A DNA stretch of 64,000 bases from Muribaculaceae bacterium (GTDB lineage: Bacteria; Bacteroidota; Bacteroidia; Bacteroidales; Muribaculaceae). A model generated the notes under the pieces. That model was not told where the DNA came from. It made no database searches and saw only the letters and a list, made by a program, of their open reading frames with translations. A program made the position numbers and the translations under genes. The stretch is from assembly GCA_017651515.1 (NCBI GenBank), contig JAGCCU010000006.1, forward strand, positions 1 to 64,000, in the 5' to 3' direction. Shown here in pieces: positions 4,005-34,798 of this stretch. Numbering within the stretch: the stretch's first letter is position 1; the number at the start of each line of letters is the position of its first letter.

Positions 4005-6269
4005 TCACTTAATCACGACTTTTTTGCCATTGTTGATGTAAATACCGGCTGCAGTGGGAACACCACGCAACTTCATACCTTGCATGTTGTACCAAGTGTT
4101 GTCGGTGTTCTCAGTGGTGATGTCGGTGATTGCAGTAGGATCCAGCTTGGTGATAATCAGAGTGCGGCCGCGGCTATCAAGGTTGATTTCCAGCTTGTAG
4201 TTGCCGTTGGGAACCATGATGGCGTTGTTGTAGTTCACACCGTCCTCTTCGAGAGTGATGGGCTGGCCATAGAGTTCGTCGGTCATGATGAAGTCACCTT
4301 CACTTACGGCTGTGAAACGATAAGGAGCGATTGCATCCCAGTCGTTGCTGTTCTCAGCAAGCATTCTAGTAAAGCTGAAGTAACCAGTTTCACCTTCAAC
4401 ATAGATTTCGGCAGTATAAATTCCGTTGTCTAATGTCATAGGAACGCCCACTGAAGGATCCCAGCTGTTGCCGTTCACCTCACCAAGGATATAAACATCA
4501 TTGAGTTCTGGCACTTCTGGACCGAGGTCCTTGATGTCGATCATTTCAGCATTGATAACATCTTTGTTGCCCGATCCTGTGCAGTTGATGAAAGCAACGA
4601 TGTGCATATTTTCGCTGTTCCATGCCTCGTTGAGCGTAGTAGAGAAGGTGTTGCTGTAAGTGGTTTCACCAGTCCAATTGATGGCATCGCCATATACGCT
4701 ATTGCTGATAACGTCGCGCATCACATGGTTGTGAGTATAGTTCTGATTCCATGAGCCATTGGAGAGCTGTTTTGCCACGAGCCCGTCTTCGGTGAGATAA
4801 ACGGTGATTGCAACCTTGTTGCCAAACACGGTGTTGAAGTCGGGCGAAGCATCACCGGCCACAGTTACGTTGAGCTGGCGTGTTTCGGGGTCGAAGGTTC
4901 CGCTGAGATTAATGTTGGCAAGGGCTGGAGTGGGGTTTGCATCGAGTGCCTCATCGCTGAGCATCTGAGCCACTTGTTGTGCATAACTGGCATTGTAGCC
5001 CAGTCCTGGCGACAGTTCACCATCATAAGGATGACGGTTGAATGAAGCGCTGGGGTATCCGGAGCATTCGAGATACGACATAATCTGGTTGCCCTCATTA
5101 GTCGTGAAGATGTCGGTTCCTGATGTCATGTCGCCATGAATAGCCACCCAGGCGATGTCGCCGCGCAGATTGCTCAGAGCTTCAAGCACATAAACTCCTA
5201 AGTAGCAGTAAGTGCAATACTGTGAGGTGAACTGCTCGACGAGTTGCTTTTGGCGTGGGAATCCATTGGTGTAAGCAAAGAACTCTTGAGAAACTTCTTC
5301 GCCTGTCACTTCTTCGCCTGCAGCATCAACAGCACGCATAGTGAGAGTGTGAGGGCCTGAGGCTATTCCGTTGAGCTGAACGGTTCCAGAGTAGTTTGTA
5401 GGTGCCATTGTAAGTTCCACAGGAGAGTCGAGCTGATCTACTTTCTGGTTATCGATGAGCACGTCAATGTGATAATTAGTGAGGGTTCCAATGCCGAAGT
5501 TAGACATGGTAAGTACGTAATTCAGGCCCATAGCTGCATCTGCATAAGAGTCACAGGTCAGGTTGTTGAGTTGCAAGTCATACTCAGGGAAGTTTTCATT
5601 TTCGACCACAGCCTGCACACTCAGGTTGCCATAGGAACTCAGACCAACGTCTTGCCACTGAGTGCTGCCTTGGATGCCATACATGTATGTGTCGTAGATA
5701 GTACCCTCCATTACAGCTGAGATGGGATAACAAGCATTAGTACTTCCTGAAAGTTGCTTGTACTGGTATCCCAGCAGGAAGCCTTGAATACCTTCGGTGC
5801 TGATGGTGTAAGGATTGTCTATTACCACTTCGTTCCATCCAGCCGTTGTGCTAGCCACGTTTTGTTCGATAACAGGTGTGCCTGTTGCAATTGTCGTGGC
5901 ATTGGTGACTGGAATGAGGTAAACTGCAGCACTAGAAACCGAAGCACACAAGCCGAAACGTATTTTCGTCACCGTTCCGCCTTCGAAATTCTGAACCAAG
6001 TCCAGTGGCAGGAAAGCACAGATTTTGTAAGTACCGGGGAGTCCGGTAAGTCCTAAACCGCTAGTGGCGAGCGCATCGCTTGTGTAAGGACCCATGTACA
6101 TTTCATTTTCGCCAAGGGCTTTCATCGGAGCCTTCATTACGTTGGGCTGAGAGAAAGTCATGACTGGATTGCGGCTAAGTAAGCCATTGTCGAGCACGAT
6201 TGCCTGACCATGTGCCATAGCCATGCCGGCAATGGCAACAATTGTTGTAAGTAATAATTTTTTAATCAT
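4005..6269 (-). CDS. Secreted Omp28-like thioredoxin-fold protein with type IX secretion C-terminal domain
   Basis: 754 residues beginning with a signal peptide (MIKKLLLTTIVAIAG...HGQ). The N-terminal third is a beta-rich adhesin-like region. Near residue 350 the segment EQFTSQYCTYC carries a CxxC motif in the context typical of Omp28-related proteins, a Bacteroidota family with a thioredoxin-like fold. The C-terminus (AITDITTENTDN... to ...NNGKKVVIK) is a type A T9SS sorting domain, so the protein is probably exported and attached to the cell surface. It is the last gene of a minus-strand cluster and starts 12 bases after its neighbour. The exact role is unknown; a surface thiol-disulfide function is an inference from CxxC. 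Confidence 0.82.
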   Translation of the reverse strand: MIKKLLLTTIVAIAGMAMAHGQAIVLDNGLLSRNPVMTFSQPNVMKAPMKALGENEMYMGPYTSDALATSGLGLTGLPGTYKICAFLPLDLVQNFEGGTVTKIRFGLCASVSSAAVYLIPVTNATTIATGTPVIEQNVASTTAGWNEVVIDNPYTISTEGIQGFLLGYQYKQLSGSTNACYPISAVMEGTIYDTYMYGIQGSTQWQDVGLSSYGNLSVQAVVENENFPEYDLQLNNLTCDSYADAAMGLNYVLTMSNFGIGTLTNYHIDVLIDNQKVDQLDSPVELTMAPTNYSGTVQLNGIASGPHTLTMRAVDAAGEEVTGEEVSQEFFAYTNGFPRQKQLVEQFTSQYCTYCYLGVYVLEALSNLRGDIAWVAIHGDMTSGTDIFTTNEGNQIMSYLECSGYPSASFNRHPYDGELSPGLGYNASYAQQVAQMLSDEALDANPTPALANINLSGTFDPETRQLNVTVAGDASPDFNTVFGNKVAITVYLTEDGLVAKQLSNGSWNQNYTHNHVMRDVISNSVYGDAINWTGETTYSNTFSTTLNEAWNSENMHIVAFINCTGSGNKDVINAEMIDIKDLGPEVPELNDVYILGEVNGNSWDPSVGVPMTLDNGIYTAEIYVEGETGYFSFTRMLAENSNDWDAIAPYRFTAVSEGDFIMTDELYGQPITLEEDGVNYNNAIMVPNGNYKLEINLDSRGRTLIITKLDPTAITDITTENTDNTWYNMQGMKLRGVPTAAGIYINNGKKVVIK

Positions 6270-6281
6270 AACACATTAAAT

Positions 6282-6974
6282 TTATATTTTGAGGATTATG
6301 TTAATTATCGCATTTACGTCCGACACGTCAATGATGCCGTTGTTGTCCATATCGCCGTTACCTGGATAATCGGTTACAGACTTGAGTTTAAGGATGATAT
6401 TGATAACGGCATTTACGTCTGACACGTCGATGACTCCGCTGCCATCTACGTCTCCAATAGAATACTCGGGCATTCCGTAATTGAAACGGACAGTGATTTT
6501 GGGACCGAAGCCTGTGGAAATATAATTAAGCCCTAACTGAGCCATCATTTCTATCTGAATCTGCGCCTCGCAGATTCCCTCTGCATCGGCAAACCACTCC
6601 ATTTGCAGGTCGCGGCTCTCACCAGGAGCCAATGTGCCACTGTTGGTCTGGTATTCGCCCACTGCTGGCAGAGGCATACAGTTCATAGGGAAGCAAATTT
6701 GGCCTGCGCCATTGTCCATGCGCGTGAGATTGACGTTTAGCCTAAGGGCTGCATTGTTTTCTGAGTTGTTCTTTATGAACAGTCCCGAATTAATTAGGTT
6801 AATCAATTCGCCTGTTCCTGGGTCTTCTTCCTGAATCAAGTCGGTAGCGTTAAACACTGCACCATCGACAATTTCGTTTCCGTCTTTGTCGATAAAGGCA
6901 AATGGGCAGTCCTGTGCCGTTGCCGTAAGGCTTGCCAGTACAAGAGTTAGAGTAAAAATAAGCTTTTTCATCAT
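6282..6974 (-). CDS. Secreted protein with C-terminal dockerin-type tandem EF-hand motif
   Basis: 230 residues with a signal peptide (MMKKLIFTLTLVLASLTATAQ). Residues ~22-165 form a beta-rich domain I do not recognise, with three cysteines at DC, ICF and NCM and a fourth at GICE. Residues ~170-230 hold two copies of a calcium-loop repeat, GDVDGSGVIDVSDVNAVINI and GDMDNNGIIDVSDVNAIINI, the dockerin type I pattern (D-x-D/N-x-D/N/S-G-x-I-D). No cohesin is visible nearby. In Bacteroidota such tails occur on many secreted proteins without cellulosomes. It lies between two Omp28 family genes, 4 bases after the upstream one, so co-transcription is nearly certain. Function unknown. Confidence 0.72.
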   Translation of the reverse strand: MMKKLIFTLTLVLASLTATAQDCPFAFIDKDGNEIVDGAVFNATDLIQEEDPGTGELINLINSGLFIKNNSENNAALRLNVNLTRMDNGAGQICFPMNCMPLPAVGEYQTNSGTLAPGESRDLQMEWFADAEGICEAQIQIEMMAQLGLNYISTGFGPKITVRFNYGMPEYSIGDVDGSGVIDVSDVNAVINIILKLKSVTDYPGNGDMDNNGIIDVSDVNAIINIILKI

Positions 6975-6978
6975 ATAT

Positions 6979-7794
6979 TTAATTTTCTGTTTCTAATTCA
7001 GTTTCAATTAATGCTTTCTTGACCACTTGCAGCACTCCGCTGTCATTATAGACAAAAGCAACAACCGAGACGTTGTCGGCGTTCCATTCACTGTCCAGGG
7101 TGATTTGGCTGGTCAATGCAGTTGTGTTTCCCTCGGTGATGTTCACATCCTGCCCCCAAGTTCCGTTAATTGCGCAGCGCAGCACATGGTTGTGGACATA
7201 TTCGCGGTCAGTGGAATTGTCGGGCATATACTGGAAAGCCACGATCCCATCTTCGACAATCCAAAGTTGCAGTTTTCCTGCAACGGTGCCATCGAGAGCC
7301 ATCATCGAGGTGGCTACGTCGAGCTGTCGTGTGTCGGGGTCGTAGTTTGTGACAACGTCTATCGAGACAGGTGCATTACTCTGTATTTCATTGTAAACCT
7401 GTGTTGCCCATTCGGTGTAGTCGGAAACCTTTCTTCGGTTAACCATTCCGATGGGCTGCCGGTCGAATTGCCAGTAAGCAAAGTATTCGTCTCCCTCATC
7501 AGTGCCCAGTGCGTAGCGCGTGCCTTTTGGTGAACGGGAGAATGGTCCGGAGTGAATACCAACTGCTATCACCGCTTCAGAGCCGTATTGTTCAATCAAC
7601 TGATCGATGGCAGCTGTGGCAGAAGGGCAGTTCACACACCGTTGGCCTGTGAAATCTTCAATCAGCACTGCACGCTGCACGGTGGCAGGCTTGACGTAGA
7701 TTAGCCTGTCGTCATCATCCACATTGTCGCATGCACTCAATGCCACTAGAACAATTGTTGCGAACAGTGAGAATATGTATTTATATCTTGTCAT
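6979..7794 (-). CDS. Omp28-related outer-membrane lipoprotein
   Basis: 271 residues from the ATG at 7794. A longer frame upstream begins with TTG and is unlikely. The N-terminus is a lipoprotein signal with lipobox ALSAC. Soon after, VLIEDFTGQRCVNCPSA shows the Omp28 signature with a CxxC motif, and the rest follows the thioredoxin-like Omp28 domain (VHNHVLR, also seen as THNHVMR in the T9SS-tailed paralogue). It follows the DUF6029 gene by about 11 bases. The paralogy with the gene at 4005-6269 suggests both act on the same extracytoplasmic thiol process, which is inference. Confidence 0.85.
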   Translation of the reverse strand: MTRYKYIFSLFATIVLVALSACDNVDDDDRLIYVKPATVQRAVLIEDFTGQRCVNCPSATAAIDQLIEQYGSEAVIAVGIHSGPFSRSPKGTRYALGTDEGDEYFAYWQFDRQPIGMVNRRKVSDYTEWATQVYNEIQSNAPVSIDVVTNYDPDTRQLDVATSMMALDGTVAGKLQLWIVEDGIVAFQYMPDNSTDREYVHNHVLRCAINGTWGQDVNITEGNTTALTSQITLDSEWNADNVSVVAFVYNDSGVLQVVKKALIETELETEN

Positions 7795-7805
7795 AATAAT
7801 CAATG

Positions 7806-9440
7806 TCAGAAGTTGTAGTTATACACAACGGTCACGCCTCGGCTGGCAGGTACGTAACGGCACACACCACCTGAGCAGTTATAGCCAGCGCGTGTGCGGC
7901 CGTAGCCCACTTGCAGTCGATGCGACTTGACGTTATAGGTAACCAGTCCCTGATAGTAATGGATGCCCGTGTCGCCACTGTTGTACATATCTGCAACGGT
8001 GAACATCCAGTGAGGTGATACCGAGAGTTCGAGCAGTCCGTAGAGCCAGTCTCCTTGGTCATCGTGAGTGGCAAGGTATTGTGCTTCACCGCGCAGGGTG
8101 AGTTTACGTGAGATGTAGTAGCTCACGTCGGCCACAACGATGTTGCTGTGAATGGTTCCGCCTTCGCCCTCAATACAAGTCTTGTTGTAGAACTGGTTCA
8201 TGTACATCAGGTTGAGTTTCACCTTGCGTGATAATTTTTTCTCAAATTGCAGATTAATGTCACGGTAGTAAGTATTCTTACCCCAACCCCAGAACGTGGC
8301 TTCCTTTCCGTCACTGCCCTTATCGGGTTCTGGTGCATCTACATTGTCAAGTGATTGTATGTGCGAGAAGTTAAGCCTTAACTTTGTTCCGTACTTTCCG
8401 CCTAACTTTGTGCCTTTTTTGAAAAGGTAGCTCAGTTCTGCTTGATATGCCCATTCTCCGTTGGCATTAGTGGCATAGGGATAAAGTGCCGGTAATGCGT
8501 AGGTGTGCTCAAGTGTGAACGCAGGCAGATGATTGATCATCGAGGATACACCGCTCATCGACCTGCGGCTGCGGAACATCATGTTCTCACTGCGCTTGGC
8601 CTGGACAAGTGCGCTGAAACCTTTCTGTGAATATGACATAGACAACATCTCAACGTGTCCAGGACGATATATGTATCCGTTGTCGAACGATGGGTCTTGT
8701 GACTTGTGGGCATATTCCAGCAAAATACTGAACGGCCCTTTCTGGAATTGTGTTCGAGCGTCCCAGGCGTTTACGTAGGTAGGGAAGTTGAGTTTGTGTG
8801 TAGCATCGACCATCAGGTCTTCCTGTGACTCATGCTTGTTGACCCACGAGAGCCCCAACATAAGGTGAGAATTGCTTTGCTTGAGGGGATTGATCCACTG
8901 TTCCAGCCCTAACTCAACATCGGCACCGGTGAGCCATGCCTTGTTCCAGTCCCAGTAACGGCGTTGTCTACCAGTGATGGCCTTGACAGTGATTCCGTCA
9001 AATCTAACTACGGCGCGGGCACCCAGAATGGAGTTATCCACACCTAGGCTGCGCTGTTCGTAGGCGCGCAGGATGAATCCGGAACCGAACTGCTCGTAGT
9101 TGGTACCGAGGGTCAGTTCAACGTGGTTGAGTTTGCCTTTGACCCAAAAGTTTGGCACACCCCAGCCCTTGAAGTCATTTTCAAATCCGGGCAGGGGATA
9201 CTTTGTAAATTCAAATCGTGCTCCAGCATCTACATAACGACTCGAAAGAGCCAGGTTGGCATAGGTGTTGGTGAGCACCTTGTCATCGGGCTTTTCCGAG
9301 CCGATTTTCTCGTCTTCCTGAGGAATGAGAATTTCGCTGTGAATGCTTCCAGAGAAGTTTATTTTTTTGTCTGTTTGTTCTTGCGCCAAAGAGGCAGCGG
9401 AAATTGTTGCAATGGCAGCAAGAATCAAGAGTCGTCTCAT
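7806..9440 (-). CDS. DUF6029 family outer-membrane protein
   Basis: 544 residues with a signal peptide (MRRLLILAAIATISAASLAQ) and a beta-strand-rich body ending in an aromatic residue (VVYNYNF), as expected of an outer-membrane barrel. The composition and conserved stretches (NFWVKGKLNHVELTLG, EQFGSGFILRAYEQRSLG) fit the Bacteroidota family DUF6029, commonly found beside TlpA and Omp28 genes. Its ATG overlaps the stop of the upstream thioredoxin gene (ATGA), so translation is probably coupled. No enzymatic motif is visible. It may form the outer-membrane component of the same system. Confidence 0.82.
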   Translation of the reverse strand: MRRLLILAAIATISAASLAQEQTDKKINFSGSIHSEILIPQEDEKIGSEKPDDKVLTNTYANLALSSRYVDAGARFEFTKYPLPGFENDFKGWGVPNFWVKGKLNHVELTLGTNYEQFGSGFILRAYEQRSLGVDNSILGARAVVRFDGITVKAITGRQRRYWDWNKAWLTGADVELGLEQWINPLKQSNSHLMLGLSWVNKHESQEDLMVDATHKLNFPTYVNAWDARTQFQKGPFSILLEYAHKSQDPSFDNGYIYRPGHVEMLSMSYSQKGFSALVQAKRSENMMFRSRRSMSGVSSMINHLPAFTLEHTYALPALYPYATNANGEWAYQAELSYLFKKGTKLGGKYGTKLRLNFSHIQSLDNVDAPEPDKGSDGKEATFWGWGKNTYYRDINLQFEKKLSRKVKLNLMYMNQFYNKTCIEGEGGTIHSNIVVADVSYYISRKLTLRGEAQYLATHDDQGDWLYGLLELSVSPHWMFTVADMYNSGDTGIHYYQGLVTYNVKSHRLQVGYGRTRAGYNCSGGVCRYVPASRGVTVVYNYNF

Positions 9441-9919
9441 TGTTTCAGTTCTATCAGTTTCTCCAACAACTCGTTCTCGGCACCATCGGTGTAGCCGTTG
9501 TGTTTGTAAACGATTTGTCCGCTCTCATCGATAATTATTACGAATGGAATCATTTGAATGCCCAAGGCGCGTTTTAATTCGCCGTTTGGGTCGAGAAGCA
9601 CGCGATACGGCCATCCGTTGGCATCCACCAACGGCTTGACACGCTGAGAAGTCTGTGCCTAATCTATAGAGATTGCAAATAATTCTACGCCGGTTTCTTC
9701 TTGCCATTCATCATAGACGTCGGCAATGGCACTCAGCTCGCGCATGCATGGCTTGCACCATGTTGCGAAGAAACTAACAATTACCGGTCGGCCAGGACCT
9801 GCCAGTGTATCGGTACTCACTTTGTTGCCCTCAATGTCGTTCAGTTCAACAACTGGCATCTGTGCACTTGCTGTTAAAGCGCAAATCGTAAGCAATAAAC
9901 TAAATAATAACTTTTTCAT
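9437..9919 (-). pseudogene. TlpA-like periplasmic thioredoxin with an in-frame amber codon
   Basis: A 160-codon frame reads as one complete TlpA/ResA-type thioredoxin except for a TAG at 9659-9661 (codon 87). Before the stop come a signal peptide (MKKLLFSLLLTICALTASAQ) and the active site FFATWCKPCMREL. After it, in the same frame, are the rest of the fold (VLLDPNGELKRALGIQMIPF with the cis-proline, and a normal C-terminus). No compensating start codon is evident just after the stop except a GTG at 9631. Codon 87 may have been GAG, AAG or CAG. The intact flanks suggest a recent mutation or a sequencing error. TAG is used as the normal stop by several neighbours, so genome-wide recoding is unlikely. 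It is the first gene of the operon and overlaps DUF6029 by ATGA. Confidence 0.8.
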
Positions 9920-10081: not shown

Positions 10082-13000
10082 TTATTCGGCAGGTTGGACG
10101 GTTAGGATGTTGCCGGCACTGTGCGCGGTGACATCGGGCGACTGCTGGCTTTGAACGGTTGCCACACCACTGCTGAACTGTCCTGGAGCAGTAACGAACA
10201 CATCGTAGGTAATGACGTGAGTTCCTTTGCGAAGACGATCGAAGAACAGGTTGGTGCCGGCATCGCGTGTCTCGCGGTAGTGTCCCACGCCGTCGCTTAC
10301 GCGGTAGCCGCTGGTTCGGTCAACGGGCTCGAAGCAAGAAGCACGCTCGTCGGTGAGCGTCATATAGTCCATATCGCGCCCGCAGGTGATGGTGAGTCGT
10401 ACCTGCACCTTGTCGCCCACGCGCAAGCCATTATTTTGCGGCTTGCCGCTCGGTGTGAGAGGATATAAGTCCTTATGAATGCTCAAGTCAGGAATACTGG
10501 CTTCCTGCACCTCACTCATGGGTAGGCTGTACTGCCAGTAAACAGCACCCCAAGCGGGACTGTTGCCACTTCGCTCTATGTTGATTTGGCTGCCGGAATG
10601 TGCATCAATGTTCTTACGGCAATAACCCATATAGGCATCGAAGCGATCCATTTCTACTGGCTTGCCGTCAAGTGTGATGACCGGTGCCTGTGCACGGTCG
10701 AGCCACTGGCTTCCGGTGGAGAGGAGGGCGTAGGTGGCGTCGGCAGCGAGGCTGCTGCCTCCCCAATCGGTGGTCTGCTTGCTCAGAAGCATCCATTTGC
10801 GCACTTGGTTGAGTTCATCCTGTTGACGGTCAACCTCATGCAGAGCTTGCAAGACAGTACTCGTCACAGCCACTTGCGACGGTGTGTACCATCCGTGTCC
10901 CATATAGCTGTCCCAATACATTCCGTGCAGCGAGTCGGTAAGTGCAAATTCTCTGATTGACTGCACGAGCGGCATTGCCTGCTTGTGCATTCCTTCGTGT
11001 TCGAGCGTGATGGCGTAGAAGGCTTTTTCGCCGAGAGAGAGATCCATCTTGTTCCACTTCTTGCCCATGTTCTTAAGCGTCTTTTTGAAGAGCTTTCGGC
11101 TGGCCTTGGTGTGTTCTACGTCGGGGAACAATGAGCGCACGTATGCGTAGTCAGAGAAGATGTCGTTCTTGAACTCCTTTTTCTTAGATAATTCAACGTG
11201 AGTCTTGTCGTAGTAAGTCACGGCTTTGGATATCATATCGTTGAGTTTGTCATCCTTTGGCAGATAGCCCAGGTTGCGGATTTCGCCAATCAGTTCGAGT
11301 ACTTCTTCCGTAGTCCACAGCGATGACTTACATCCGTCATAGCGGTACCACGTAAAGCCTCCGTCAGACAATTGCAGGTCACTCAAGGCCTTCACCAGTC
11401 GGTCGTGTTCATTCTTAGCTTCGGTGGGGTCGAAATAGGTGGCGAGTTGCTGCATCTGCAGTGTCTGGCGTTCGCTGTCGCGCAGCCAAGGTGAAGTGAT
11501 GAGGCTGCCAATCTTCAGGTCGCTGTTACGGCTGAGTGCCGACACGAGCATAGAGTCCTGGCAGTTCTCTTTCCAATAGTTCACAGCTTCGCGGATGATG
11601 GGCTGCGAATTTGCCACGCCCTGAGCCACATCTACTGCGTAGAACGTGTGTGCTATGCTTGTAGCGACAAAGCTGTTGTCGCTGGCGATGCTTGGCAGTG
11701 CGGTGACAGTGTACCACACGGGATTGTCACAGTATTCAAGCGTATATCTTGCAGTCTCTGGAGCATTGGGCAGGGTAGCGGTGAATGTACTTTGGTCAGC
11801 ATTGATGAACATCGGCAGCGACTCGACGATGGGCGAAATTGCTGTTAGAACCGGAATCATTGTCTGCTCTCCATCGCTGAAGTCGGCATTTGCAGCCCTC
11901 ACTCGGAAGCCGAGATATGGGATTGTGTCAGGCACATTCCAGTCGATTGTCAGAGCTTGAGTTGCCTTTGCATCAAGTGCTGGCTTAAACGTCTGCGAGG
12001 TGTAAACGTTCATAGTGCGTGGGTCGAAAATCTCAACGATTGCATCGCACTGCTGGGTGGCATCTGTGGCATTCTGCAATGTTGCCGCGAGTGACACCTT
12101 GTCGCCTTGTCGTACAAATCGTGGCAGCGATGGCTTTACCATGATGGGCTTTTGCGTGAGCACGTTCGGAGTCCAAATGTTAGTGCTAAGTTCCTTGGTG
12201 AAGCCGAGTGCCTGCACGAGCCATGTAGTGTTAAAGTCGGGCGCATTGAACTCAATGGTTACATTGCCCTGTTCGTCGGTTTCAAGCATTGGCTGCCATA
12301 GTGCTGTTTTTACGTCGGCCATGCGTAATTCAACTTTGTCGAGGAGAGCCATGTCAACTTCGGCCTGTTGCCCGGCACTTTCTTCTTCGTCGGTTTCTTT
12401 AATAGAACGACTTTTTTCCTTATAGTTAACTGCTGCTCCAAATGCTGCTTGTGTTTCGTAAATGCGATAGCGCATTGATGAGCATCCTTCCCATAGTTTA
12501 GTGTTGTATTGGATTAGTCTTGGCTCATCATAGTAGGTTTTGGAGTCCAATCTTTCGGCTTGCCAACTACTGGTGTTCTGAATGCTCGAAGCAAATCTCA
12601 TGCACCAAGCCTTCATAGGTGTGCAAGAGAGCAGTGACGGGGCAAAACTCCAAGTATTGTTCTTCAAATCGTGAATAGCTTTGTCAATCATCTCAAGCAT
12701 AAGCGCTCCCTGTTGTGGCTTGTCGGCGTTGCCCAACAGTTGCAGTTGCCATCGTTCTGGTTTGCCTGGTATAAGCTTGTCGCGGAATGCAGTAGCTTTG
12801 ACTTTTAACGGTCTGACATTGACTGGTGAAGTCATACTAACTTCCTTGTTGTAGAATTTTGCTTTATACAAGCTGGTGAAATTGAGAGTGAGCGTTTCAT
12901 GTGCCACATCAGGAACTTTGAATGTGAACTCGGTGATTCCACGCTTAAGCTCAACCCATCCTTGTTTCAGTACTTTTTCCCGTCCGTATGCCACGTAATA

Positions 13001-15892: not shown

Positions 15893-16867
15893 ATGAAAAA
15901 GTTATTGTATTTTTTAGCTGTGGGACTTATAACTCTCGCAGCATGTAATCAAAACAGCAACTATAAAGTGGTGGTTACATTCCCCGATAATAGCGCTGAT
16001 GGCGATACAGCTTATCTTACCAGCTACGACAGTGGTGATACATTGCTGACTGGTGTGGTGAAAGACAAGTTTGTCGTGCTCGAAGGCGAGGTTGACGGCT
16101 CGTTCATGTCAAGACTGCTGGTAGCCGGCAAGCGTATCGGCTTCGTTGTAGAAAAAGGCGAAATTTCCATCATGATGCAGGATGGAAAAGCTACCGGCAC
16201 AGCGCTCAACGACCGAATGAATGTCCTTGACGAGGAACTCAGCAAGCTGGAAGATGACTCGTTGATGACTGATTTGTTTTACAAGGCATATAAGTATAAT
16301 AAGGAGAATGCTATCGGTCCATGGGCTTTCAACTATTATCTGATGTATAATTCATTTACTCCTACTCAGATTGACTCTTTGCTCAAAGATGCTCCCGAAG
16401 GCTATCGCAATCTTAAGCGTGTTCAGAAAGCCATCAAGGCTTCCGAGCAGCTTGTGGCAACTGCAGTGGGCAAGAAATTCACCGACTTCAGTGCCCCAAA
16501 CGGAACAGCTCTGTCAAAATATGCCGGTAATGGCAAATACACGCTTGTGGATTTCTGGGCAAGTTGGTGTGGTCCGTGCCGTCGTGAGATTCCAAACATC
16601 AAGAAACTTTATGAGAAGTTTTCTTCGAAGATGAACTTCGTAGGAGTAGCTGTGTGGGACAACCCCGATGATACACACAAAGCTGTTGATGAGTTGGGTA
16701 TCGTGTGGCCAGTGATGGAAGGTGGCAAGAATTGGACAGAGCCTACCGATCTTTATGGTGTCAGCGGTATTCCTCACATCATGCTCATTGACCCAGAGGG
16801 CGTGATAGTAGCTCGTGGTCTGGAAGGAGAAACTATGATAAAGACAATCGAAGACCTTAAATTATAG
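15893..16867 (+). CDS. TlpA-family thioredoxin-like lipoprotein with DUF4369 N-terminal domain
   Basis: 324 residues with a lipoprotein signal ending in the lipobox LAAC (residue ~18). Residues ~20-110 form a beta domain of the DUF4369 type, followed by a helical linker to ~190. The C-terminal third is a TlpA/ResA thioredoxin domain: FWASWCGPCRREIP with CGPC near residue 225 and the cis-proline loop GVSGIPH near 298. Such proteins are thiol-disulfide reductases attached to the membrane facing the periplasm. It leads a plus-strand operon with a porin and a secreted protein of unknown function (spacings of ~30 and ~16 bases). Unlike the gene at 9437-9919, this one is intact and might cover the same activity. 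Confidence 0.88.
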   Translation: MKKLLYFLAVGLITLAACNQNSNYKVVVTFPDNSADGDTAYLTSYDSGDTLLTGVVKDKFVVLEGEVDGSFMSRLLVAGKRIGFVVEKGEISIMMQDGKATGTALNDRMNVLDEELSKLEDDSLMTDLFYKAYKYNKENAIGPWAFNYYLMYNSFTPTQIDSLLKDAPEGYRNLKRVQKAIKASEQLVATAVGKKFTDFSAPNGTALSKYAGNGKYTLVDFWASWCGPCRREIPNIKKLYEKFSSKMNFVGVAVWDNPDDTHKAVDELGIVWPVMEGGKNWTEPTDLYGVSGIPHIMLIDPEGVIVARGLEGETMIKTIEDLKL

Positions 16868-25665: not shown

Positions 25666-26990
25666 TGGCCATGATTGAGAATAAAAATAACGAAGCTGTT
25701 GTCCCGTCGGGCGACCAGCCGTGCAAGACCGGTTGCCAGTCGAGCGCCACGCGCATCAGTGCCGGTGGCTGCGGAGGTCGTTGCAATCTCCGTGCAACCA
25801 ACTGGCTTGAGGATGTGCCTGGCGAGATGAACGACTTCGACATGGTGGAGGTACATTTCAAGAACACCCGCCGTGGCTTCTACCGCAATTCAGCCGGTTT
25901 GGACCTTCACATAGGAGACATGGTAGCAGTGGAGGCTAATCCGGGTCATGATATCGGAGAGGTGGCAATGACTGGCAAGCTTGTAAAGTTGCAGATGAAA
26001 CGTGCCAACCTCAAGCCTGATGTTGAAATCCTTCGAGTGTTCCGCAAGGCAAAGCCTGCTGATCTCGAGCGTTATGAAGAAGCAAAGGCGCGCGAGGTGG
26101 ATACCATGATACGTTCGAGGCAGATTGCTGTAGACTTGGGTTTGAAGATGAAAATCGGCGACGTGGAGTATCAGGGTGACGGCAACAAAGCAATATTCTA
26201 CTACATTGCCGATGAGCGCGTAGATTTCCGTCAGCTTATCAAGGTTCTTGCCGAAGTGTTCAGAATACGTGTTGAGATGAAGCAGATTGGTGCTCGTCAG
26301 GAAGCGGGCCGCATTGGCGGTATAGGTCCCTGCGGTCGCCCGTTGTGCTGTGCATCATGGATGACAAGTTTTGTAAGCGTTGCAACCAATGCTGCACGCT
26401 TCCAGGATATTTCACTTAATCCTCAGAAACTGGCAGGACAGTGCGCCAAGCTTAAGTGCTGCATCAACTTTGAGGTTGACACTTACGTGGAAGCGGGTAG
26501 GGAAATGCCGTCAAGCGAAGTTGTGCTTGAAACCCGCGACAGGCAATACTTCCATTTTAAGACCGATGTGCTGAAACGTGAGATTTCCTACAGCACCAAA
26601 AAGGGTATACCTGAAAATTTGGTCACACTGCCAGTAGAACGTGTATATGAGGTTATTTCTCTCAATGAGAATGGCATAAAACCCGACAAGCTGGCACTTG
26701 ATGATGCCGAGCGGGAGTTTGAGAAGAATGCTTTCGGTGATATTCTCGGTCAGGATGCCATTAACCGCTTCGACAAAAAGAAAAAGAAGAAGTCAAAGAA
26801 AAATCGTGAATCTCATACCGAGCCTGAACAGCAACAGCATCAATTAATAGATGCCGAAGTTGTCCGTTCGGAGAGTCGACCGCTTCGACAGCGTGACAAC
26901 AAGCACCGTCAGCCGAATCATCGCAAGAACGACCGCAAGATGTTCCGTCCGCGTGACAATGGCGTCAAGAATCAGGAAAACCGGCAGTAG
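25665..26990 (+). CDS. ricT: PSP1-domain protein RicT (YaaT family)
   Basis: 441 residues. A cysteine-rich N-terminus (CKTGCQSS, GGCGGRCNL) leads into the PSP1 domain, with conserved GPCGRPLCCASW near residue 222 and QCAKLKCCINFE near 260. The last ~75 residues are a basic, probably disordered tail (KKKKKKSKKNR). In Bacillus subtilis RicT forms a Fe-S complex with RicA and RicF that acts with RNase Y. Here RicT directly follows rny with a one-base overlap, and no RicA or RicF is visible. Two ATG codons (25665, 25671) could start it. Confidence 0.88.
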   Translation: MAMIENKNNEAVVPSGDQPCKTGCQSSATRISAGGCGGRCNLRATNWLEDVPGEMNDFDMVEVHFKNTRRGFYRNSAGLDLHIGDMVAVEANPGHDIGEVAMTGKLVKLQMKRANLKPDVEILRVFRKAKPADLERYEEAKAREVDTMIRSRQIAVDLGLKMKIGDVEYQGDGNKAIFYYIADERVDFRQLIKVLAEVFRIRVEMKQIGARQEAGRIGGIGPCGRPLCCASWMTSFVSVATNAARFQDISLNPQKLAGQCAKLKCCINFEVDTYVEAGREMPSSEVVLETRDRQYFHFKTDVLKREISYSTKKGIPENLVTLPVERVYEVISLNENGIKPDKLALDDAEREFEKNAFGDILGQDAINRFDKKKKKKSKKNRESHTEPEQQQHQLIDAEVVRSESRPLRQRDNKHRQPNHRKNDRKMFRPRDNGVKNQENRQ

Positions 26991-32980: not shown

Positions 32981-34798
32981 ATGCAAAATATTAGAAATGT
33001 AGCCATTATAGCCCACGTTGACCACGGTAAGACAACTCTGGTGGACAAGATGCTTGCTGCTGGCAACCTGTTTCGTGACAATCAGCTGGTGGGCACTCAG
33101 ATTCTTGACAGCAACGACCTTGAGCGAGAGCGTGGCATCACAATACTCTCGAAGAATGTGTCGATTAGTTATAAAGATTATAAAATCAATATCATTGATA
33201 CTCCAGGACATAGTGACTTTGGAGGCGAAGTGGAACGTGTGCTGAATATGGCAGATGGCTGTTTGCTGTTGGTGGACGCTTTTGAGGGCCCGATGCCGCA
33301 GACTCGTTTCGTGTTGCAGAAAGCAATTCAGATAGGGTTGAAGCCCATAGTGGTAATCAATAAGGTAGATAAGCCTAACTGTCGTCCCGATGAGGTTCAG
33401 GAACAGGTCTTTGACCTGATGTGCAACCTTGATGCTACCGAAGATCAGTTGGAATTCCCAACTATCTTTGGAAGTGCCAAGAATGGCTGGATGAGTGATG
33501 ACTGGCGTAATCCTACTACAGATATCAATGCAGTGCTTGATGCCATTATCGAGCACATCCCTGCGCCAGAAGTGGTGAATGGTGATCCACAGATGCTAAT
33601 AACGTCATTGGATTACAGTTCCTATGTTGGCCGCATCGCAATTGGCCGTGTGCATCGCGGCACGCTCACCGATGGCATGGAAGTGGGTCTTTGCAAGAAA
33701 GACGGTTCGGTAGTAAAGCAAAAAGTCAAGGAACTGCGCACATTTGAAGGTATGGGACAGAAGCATGTCGATAGTGTGGAATGCGGTGACATCTGTGCCA
33801 TTGTTGGTCTCGAGGGTTTTGAGATTGGCGACACTGTCACAAATATGGAGAATCCCGAGCCGCTGCCGCGTATAGCCATCGACGAGCCCACCATGTCGAT
33901 GCTTTTCACTATCAACGATTCACCTTTCTTCGGCAAGGATGGCAAGTATGTTACTTCACGTCACATCTGGGAACGCCTACAGAAGGAATTGGACAAAAAC
34001 CTCGCTTTGCGTGTTGAGCGGACCGAGAATGAGGACGCCTGGCTGGTGTATGGTCGTGGGGTACTTCACTTGAGCGTTCTTATAGAGGAGATGCGTCGTG
34101 AGGGCTATGAACTTCAGGTTGGTCAGCCGCAGGTGATCATCAAGGAGATAGACGGAGTGAAGTGTGAACCTATTGAGGCTCTCACCATCAACGTGCCTGA
34201 GAAATACTCCAGCAAGATGATTGACATGGTCACGCGTCGCAAGGGCGAGATGACGCTTATGGAGACACAGAATGACCGTATATTGCTTGAATTCAAGATT
34301 CCAGCCAGAGGCATTATCGGTTTGCGTACCAACGTGCTCACTGCAAGTGCCGGTGAGGCTATCATGGCTCACCGCTTCCTTGGCTATGAGCCTTGGAAGG
34401 GTGAAATTACCCGTCGCACTAATGGTTCTTTAATAGCAATGGAAGGCGGTACGGCATTTGCCTATGCCATCGACAAATTGCAGGATCGTGGTAAATTTTT
34501 CATCTTCCCACAAGAAGAAGTTTATGGTGGTCAGGTGGTTGGTGAGCACGCCAAGGACAAGGATTTGGTTATAAACGTCACCAAGAGCAAGAAACTCACT
34601 AACATGCGTGCCAGCGGTGCCGACGAAAAGGTGAAAATTGTTCCGCCCATCGTGTTTAGTCTGGAAGAAGCACTAGAGTATATTAAGGCTGATGAATATG
34701 TCGAAATCACTCCAGCGCATCTGCGTATGCGCAAGATAGTGCTTGACGAATTGGAGCGTAAGCGTATTGAAAAGGCCGCCGAACGCGCTGAAGAATAA
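32981..34798 (+). CDS. typA: Ribosome-binding GTPase TypA/BipA
   Basis: 605 residues from the ATG at 32981 ([20 protein letters not shown]), the usual N-terminus and length of the family. G1 is AHVDHGKTT, the switch region has [12 protein letters not shown]3 is [14 protein letters not shown] and G4 NKVDKP. EF-G-like domains III and V and the TypA-specific C-terminal domain follow. TypA aids ribosome assembly and growth under stress or cold. The extension back to 32891 is rejected because of the promoter box. A strong terminator follows. Confidence 0.97.

Follow-up and report, generated by a model that had tools for sequence, protein, structure and literature searches.

Three kinds of described system come close to the locus reported here. 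Thiol-disulfide oxidoreductases of the TlpA/ResA type carry a CxxC motif within an AhpC-TSA/Redoxin domain. Nonsense alleles and young bacterial pseudogenes show one premature stop, a near-identical intact copy and no further decay, and stop-decoding systems, such as those of suppressor tRNAs, pyrrolysine or phage code 15, have in-frame TAG codons in conserved genes. The frame studied here shares the motif and the domain of the first group, and unlike its members it is cut after residue 86. From the second group no difference was seen, judging from the assembled sequence alone. With the third it has in common an in-frame TAG in a conserved gene, but its genome showed no UAG-reading tRNA among 42 matches and contains release factor 1 (RF1), and the TAG is single and not conserved.

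In this study, we report the comparison of this frame with its homologues, the use of stop codons in its genome and the organization of its operon. The window, that is, the whole stretch of 64,000 nucleotides that was analysed, corresponds to positions 1-64000 of contig C40 of assembly G000, which belongs to a gut bacterium, consists of 2.49 Mb in 85 contigs and is 87% complete. On the sequence data, a nonsense mutation of recent date, limited to this strain or species, is the most likely origin of the TAG. As a finding, such an allele in one assembled genome is ordinary, and so is the gene. It must be noted that the split serves as a caution, since reads and relatives are needed before read-through is invoked.

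The interrupted thioredoxin frame and its homologues

The tlpA/resA-like thioredoxin frame, recognized by translation and by domain and profile searches, lies on the minus strand at 9437-9919 and consists of 160 codons and a terminal TGA. Codon 87 of this frame (9659-9661) is a TAG, the only one in frame. Its minus-strand translation runs MKKLLF...FAISID*AQTSQR...LIELKQ*, and the terminal TGA overlaps the ATG of the downstream DUF6029 gene (ATGA). A previous sequence-only reading had placed the TAG as splitting the frame up to this overlap, and all of its coordinates were borne out by retranslation. The N-terminal piece (9662-9919, minus strand, 86 codons) has a start resembling a signal peptide by eye, the WCKPC motif at residues 54-58 and the first half of the thioredoxin domain. 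The C-terminal piece (9440-9658, minus strand, 73 codons, residues 88-160) is coding-like and conserved and carries Pro125, which we take to be the cis-proline of the thioredoxin fold.

When the two pieces were scanned separately, they matched positions 4-68 and 69-123 of the AhpC-TSA profile, respectively (4.8e-13 for the N-terminal piece against PF00578), and the Redoxin profile was split likewise (positions 3-71 and 77-143). In a profile search with 15 intact homologues the closest solved sequence was 2m72_A, an "uncharacterized thioredoxin-like protein" (residues 14-158, E 6e-62), followed by ResA (4nmu) and StoA (3erw). With WCKPC inside an AhpC-TSA/Redoxin domain, the frame is predicted to belong to the TlpA/ResA-like thiol-disulfide oxidoreductases. 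The DNA still holds the remaining half of the domain and Pro125 in frame, yet they lie 3' of the stop, and a product translated with code 11 would lack both. As read from its sequence, this copy of the thioredoxin is broken, ending at residue 86.

The open sequence beyond the stop is more than a product of chance, since the two halves hit the same domain families, residues 88-160 share 78-90% identity with eight related loci and the codon-usage score is 0.161 in the thioredoxin frame and does not exceed -0.004 in any of the other five. The earlier proposal that the frame continues as a thioredoxin beyond the TAG stands, with the 73 codons after the stop matching the same domain families. Substitution rates before and after the stop showed no clear difference in the comparison with eight relatives, with silent sites near saturation, so that the rates cannot date the mutation.

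A database search returned an intact protein of 160 aa (P0001) which was identical to the window's frame at 86 of the 86 residues before codon 87 and at 72 of the 73 after it, in agreement with the absence of decay after the stop that had been proposed from the sequence. The one further difference concerned residue 128, and P0001 must therefore be regarded as another haplotype and not as the same sequence minus the stop. The structure model of this protein was poor (mean pLDDT 55.6). An alignment of homologues at codon 87 had been recommended, and in the best 120 of 3,781 homologues this residue was Gln (70) or Glu (50), while WCKPC was invariant and Pro125 was found in 120 of 120. The codons were then compared at 100 loci from two partly overlapping genome sets (80 and 20), the window's own locus included. 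Position 87 was Gln or Glu in 92 of them, another residue in seven and a stop in one, which was the window's own; the other 99 had no stop anywhere in the match and are, like P0001, uninterrupted orthologues. Internal stops were likewise absent from the other thioredoxin frames among the matches listed in two scans, one of 61 genomes and one of 397 genomes, of which 185 had a match.

Other short forms were also considered. The match in genome G001 covered only residues 2-89 and was rejected as a recurrent truncation, given that the end of a contig cuts the locus. A homologue of 87 residues (P0125, 63% identical), encoded on a contig of 1,368 bases, ends exactly at the residue before the stop reported here; its end may be either that of the contig or a second truncation. 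No identical match to the truncated form of 86 aa was found in the protein set, where the N-terminal query gave 41 matches and the full-length query 3,781; this suggests that fragments were absorbed in clustering and makes the absence of the 86-aa form uninformative. Two thioredoxin paralogues, 24 and 28% identical, were listed in the genome, in which there was at least one further match. The 28% value belongs to a distant thioredoxin-like paralogue at 15893-16867 on the plus strand of the window, which is intact and was aligned over residues 32-139.

The operon and the pairing with DUF6029

The frame is followed on the minus strand by an intact DUF6029 gene (7806-9440, 544 aa), whose start forms the ATGA overlap, and then by the genes of an Omp28 family lipoprotein (6979-7803), a small protein of 230 aa with a C-terminal dockerin-type match (6282-6974) and a large Omp28-like protein of 754 aa (4005-6269). 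The order of these five genes was kept in all seven relatives fetched. The match at the end of the small protein was to dockerin type I (PF00404, residues 174-228). According to one report (PMC9603273), Wzi-like porin hits resemble DUF6029 by HHpred and have a potential role in polysaccharide secretion.

At 98 of 99 loci the thioredoxin shared its strand with a DUF6029 match, the measurable gaps ranging from -53 to 202 bases; at the exception (L088), 6.1 kb downstream of the thioredoxin were free of DUF6029. Among the 397 genomes of the family, the thioredoxin was found in 185 and DUF6029 in 189. Both genes were present in 184 and a single one in six (thioredoxin only in one, DUF6029 only in five), as established by comparing the lists by hand. 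The thioredoxin-only genome was the above-mentioned G001, cut by a contig end, and according to the locus lengths four of the five DUF6029-only genomes were also cut at contig ends. The fifth, G213, was not; it had other sequence upstream of DUF6029 and gave no thioredoxin match. This nearly perfect co-occurrence suggests that DUF6029 depends on the thioredoxin. Given that the thioredoxin is so rarely lost alone, a standing nonsense allele is slightly surprising; the rarity of lone loss would agree with a mutation that is still young, with an operon on its way to being lost entirely, or with an error.

The window's DUF6029 protein was 100% identical to the representative of a cluster of two member sequences (P0159), which stands for five contigs, the longest of them (112,395 bases) being longer than the window's contig. 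In a different species (G188, locus L161, G188:C5:6131-7756) there was one in-frame TGA inside DUF6029, the only interruption of this gene among the matches listed for the 189 genomes that have it.

With respect to its consequences, the TAG would leave the thioredoxin with 86 of its 160 residues and thereby without function: the product would keep WCKPC, lack the second half of the domain together with Pro125, and probably be inactive. In addition, translation would stop about 220 bases before the start of DUF6029, so that the two genes would no longer be translationally coupled through the ATGA overlap and less DUF6029 and Omp28 might be made. As the pair is nearly inseparable (184 genomes with both genes and six with one), a natural strain lacking the thioredoxin would put the role of the thioredoxin/DUF6029 pair to the test.

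Reading of UAG in the genome and origin of the stop

The sequence-only reading had regarded amber as a real stop here, and the genome agrees with it. The gene for RF1 (prfA) was found above cut-off, and TAG terminated 7 of 32 long frames on the window's contig and, over 497 kb sampled from the genome, 45 of 236, which also led us to reject a genome-wide recoding of TAG. Rfam identified 42 tRNAs, of which ARAGORN read 41, and the last one, located at a contig end, was assigned the anticodon CTC by eye. A search for a suppressor tRNA had been called for, and no UAG-reading (CUA) anticodon was present among the 42 matches in this 87% complete genome, the remaining 13% leaving room for a UAG-reading tRNA that was missed. 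Taken together, RF1, the TAG-ended frames and the tRNA census are those of a genome in which TAG is a working stop.

Additional split genes were sought in the 497-kb sample by means of codon usage. The scan covered 83 stops preceded by coding-like sequence and followed by at least 40 open codons. After 15 of these 83 the sequence was again coding-like and scored best in the same frame, the stop being TAA in 14 cases and TAG in one, that of the window, so that no second TAG-split gene was found in the sample. In 12 of the 14 TAA cases an ATG followed within 15 codons, as expected of the next gene. In the other two (C28:8994 and C49:39405) the first ATG was 56 and 54 codons further on, with another possible start nearer. 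On the window's contig, 7 of 16 candidate stops were translated and inspected by eye, and all seven were discarded: those at 26988, 27492 and 44370 separate two different genes lying in one frame, and those at 34430, 55222, 55843 and 69551 look like parts of non-coding frames. The in-frame TAG was neither conserved nor frequent, being limited to one of 100 loci and to one gene in the 497-kb scan.

Recent loss of function, sequencing error and read-through had been listed together as explanations of the stop. The first is now favoured by the near-identical intact copy, by the lack of the stop at all 99 other loci and by the working amber codon, whereas read-through is disfavoured. The undecayed sequence beyond the TAG is what one would expect if the mutation has had no time to be followed by others, and the interruption of another gene of the operon in G188 was also counted in favour of a nonsense allele. 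Counted against it were the variability of position 87, which is neither Gln nor Glu at 7 of 100 loci, and the almost constant company of DUF6029, which speaks for selection against the loss of the thioredoxin. The latter is equally an argument for an unlikely, though by no means negligible, explanation, namely an error of assembly or consensus, or a minority allele in the consensus of a mixed-strain metagenome, the gene being intact in most cells. The existence of P0001 and the fragmented state of the genome (85 contigs, 87% complete) point in the same direction. Nevertheless, P0001 belongs to another haplotype by its residue 128, and the absence of a second TAG-split gene in the 497-kb scan gives no sign of many such errors. 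Consensus errors are, in general, much rarer than natural pseudogenes.

A nonsense mutation also accounts better for the data than the readings in which the interrupted gene would still work. Read-through, in which Glu, Gln or some other residue would be inserted at the TAG with sufficient frequency for full-length thioredoxin to be made, is very improbable. The coding-like sequence beyond the stop would agree with it, as would the end of P0125 at the same place and a UCA-anticodon tRNA beside a TGA-rich frame in this genome (see below), by which stop decoding as such may exist; but the anticodon of that tRNA suits UGA rather than UAG and leaves the thioredoxin amber unexplained, P0125 may simply be cut at the end of its short contig, RF1 is present, and the stop recurs neither at the 99 other loci nor in a second gene of the scan. 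Read-through by a suppressor tRNA was rejected for the genome as assembled, in view of the tRNA census, of RF1 and of this non-recurrence. An even smaller chance is given to the possibility that both pieces function, the N-terminal one as a short protein of 86 aa and the C-terminal one as a product of 64 aa started separately at the TTG at 9631. Both are open frames, but each covers only part of the domain profiles and none of the 99 other loci is split. The least probable reading is that the amber codon is decoded by a suppressor tRNA supplied by the missing 13% of the genome or by a phage, and that thioredoxin would be made only when the suppressor is there; it would set the amber in a genome with another element in which UGA is apparently read as glycine.

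A TGA-rich frame beside a UCA tRNA on contig C84

This candidate UGA-to-glycine module, which is unrelated to the TAG, matters much more than the split thioredoxin and merits a study of its own. ARAGORN called a tRNA-SeC with anticodon TCA at G000:C84:9206-9299, adjoining a second long-armed tRNA with TCG. selB was found above cut-off in none of 31 genomes and the TCA tRNA was below the cut-off of the tRNA-Sec model; by these tests it is not a selenocysteine system. Divergent from the tRNAs, on the opposite strand, there is a frame of 634 codons (G000:C84:9995-11896) with 29 in-frame TGA, which is open only if TGA is read.

The loci of the module are L072 (G000:C84, 8098-11896), L195 (G015:C34, 288-3723), L213 (G396:C31) and L212 (G433:C146). 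In G015, another species, the same frame contains 33 TGA and is 89% identical when TGA is read as glycine. All 29 TGA of C84 are kept there, and the differences are mostly at the third codon position (55, 35 and 142 by position). The four extra TGA of G015 face GGA, GGG, GGT and TCA in the C84 frame. The tRNA pair also adjoins the frame in G015, with 198 of 202 bases identical. In distant homologues, glycine was the most frequent residue opposite the TGA of C84 (9 of 18 in G433, 10 of 21 in G009 and 5 of 15 in G396). Against glycine, of 10 TGA codons of G396 itself five faced other residues, two faced glycine and three faced TGA. In attention to these comparisons, the arrangement looks like a self-contained gene module of Bacteroidales in which UGA would be read as Gly.

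Within the genus, G000, G015 and G396 (3 of 101 genomes) had the full tRNA pair, each time near the TGA-rich protein or a divergent copy of it, and G433 had the UCA tRNA alone. In 26 other genomes of the genus only pieces of 29-51 bases were found among the matches listed. The protein copy beside the tRNAs in G396 is divergent and partly broken (by TAG, TAA and TGA), and G433 has a partial homologue (residues 306-633) with three TGA in its open frame. Among the 397 genomes of the family the TGA-rich protein was found only in G000, G015, G009 and G396, the copy of G009 having no internal stop. Viral contigs, phages and plasmids gave no match to the module, and no comparable system was found in the part of the literature that was covered (including PMC7609411).

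Just beyond the TGA-rich frame there is a second, truncated 5' end of prfA (87% identity over 470 bases). The positions concerned are 12027-12495 and 7285-7753 of L072 (G000:C84), the full prfA lying about 5 kb from the truncated part. It may be that the module is situated within or next to a duplication of the RF1 gene, or that the contig is misjoined at this point. In this regard, the same arrangement in G015 means that a misjoin of C84 alone cannot explain the module. The gene that follows the tRNAs gave a weak, below-cut-off match resembling RNase III and is kept in G015, G396 and G433.
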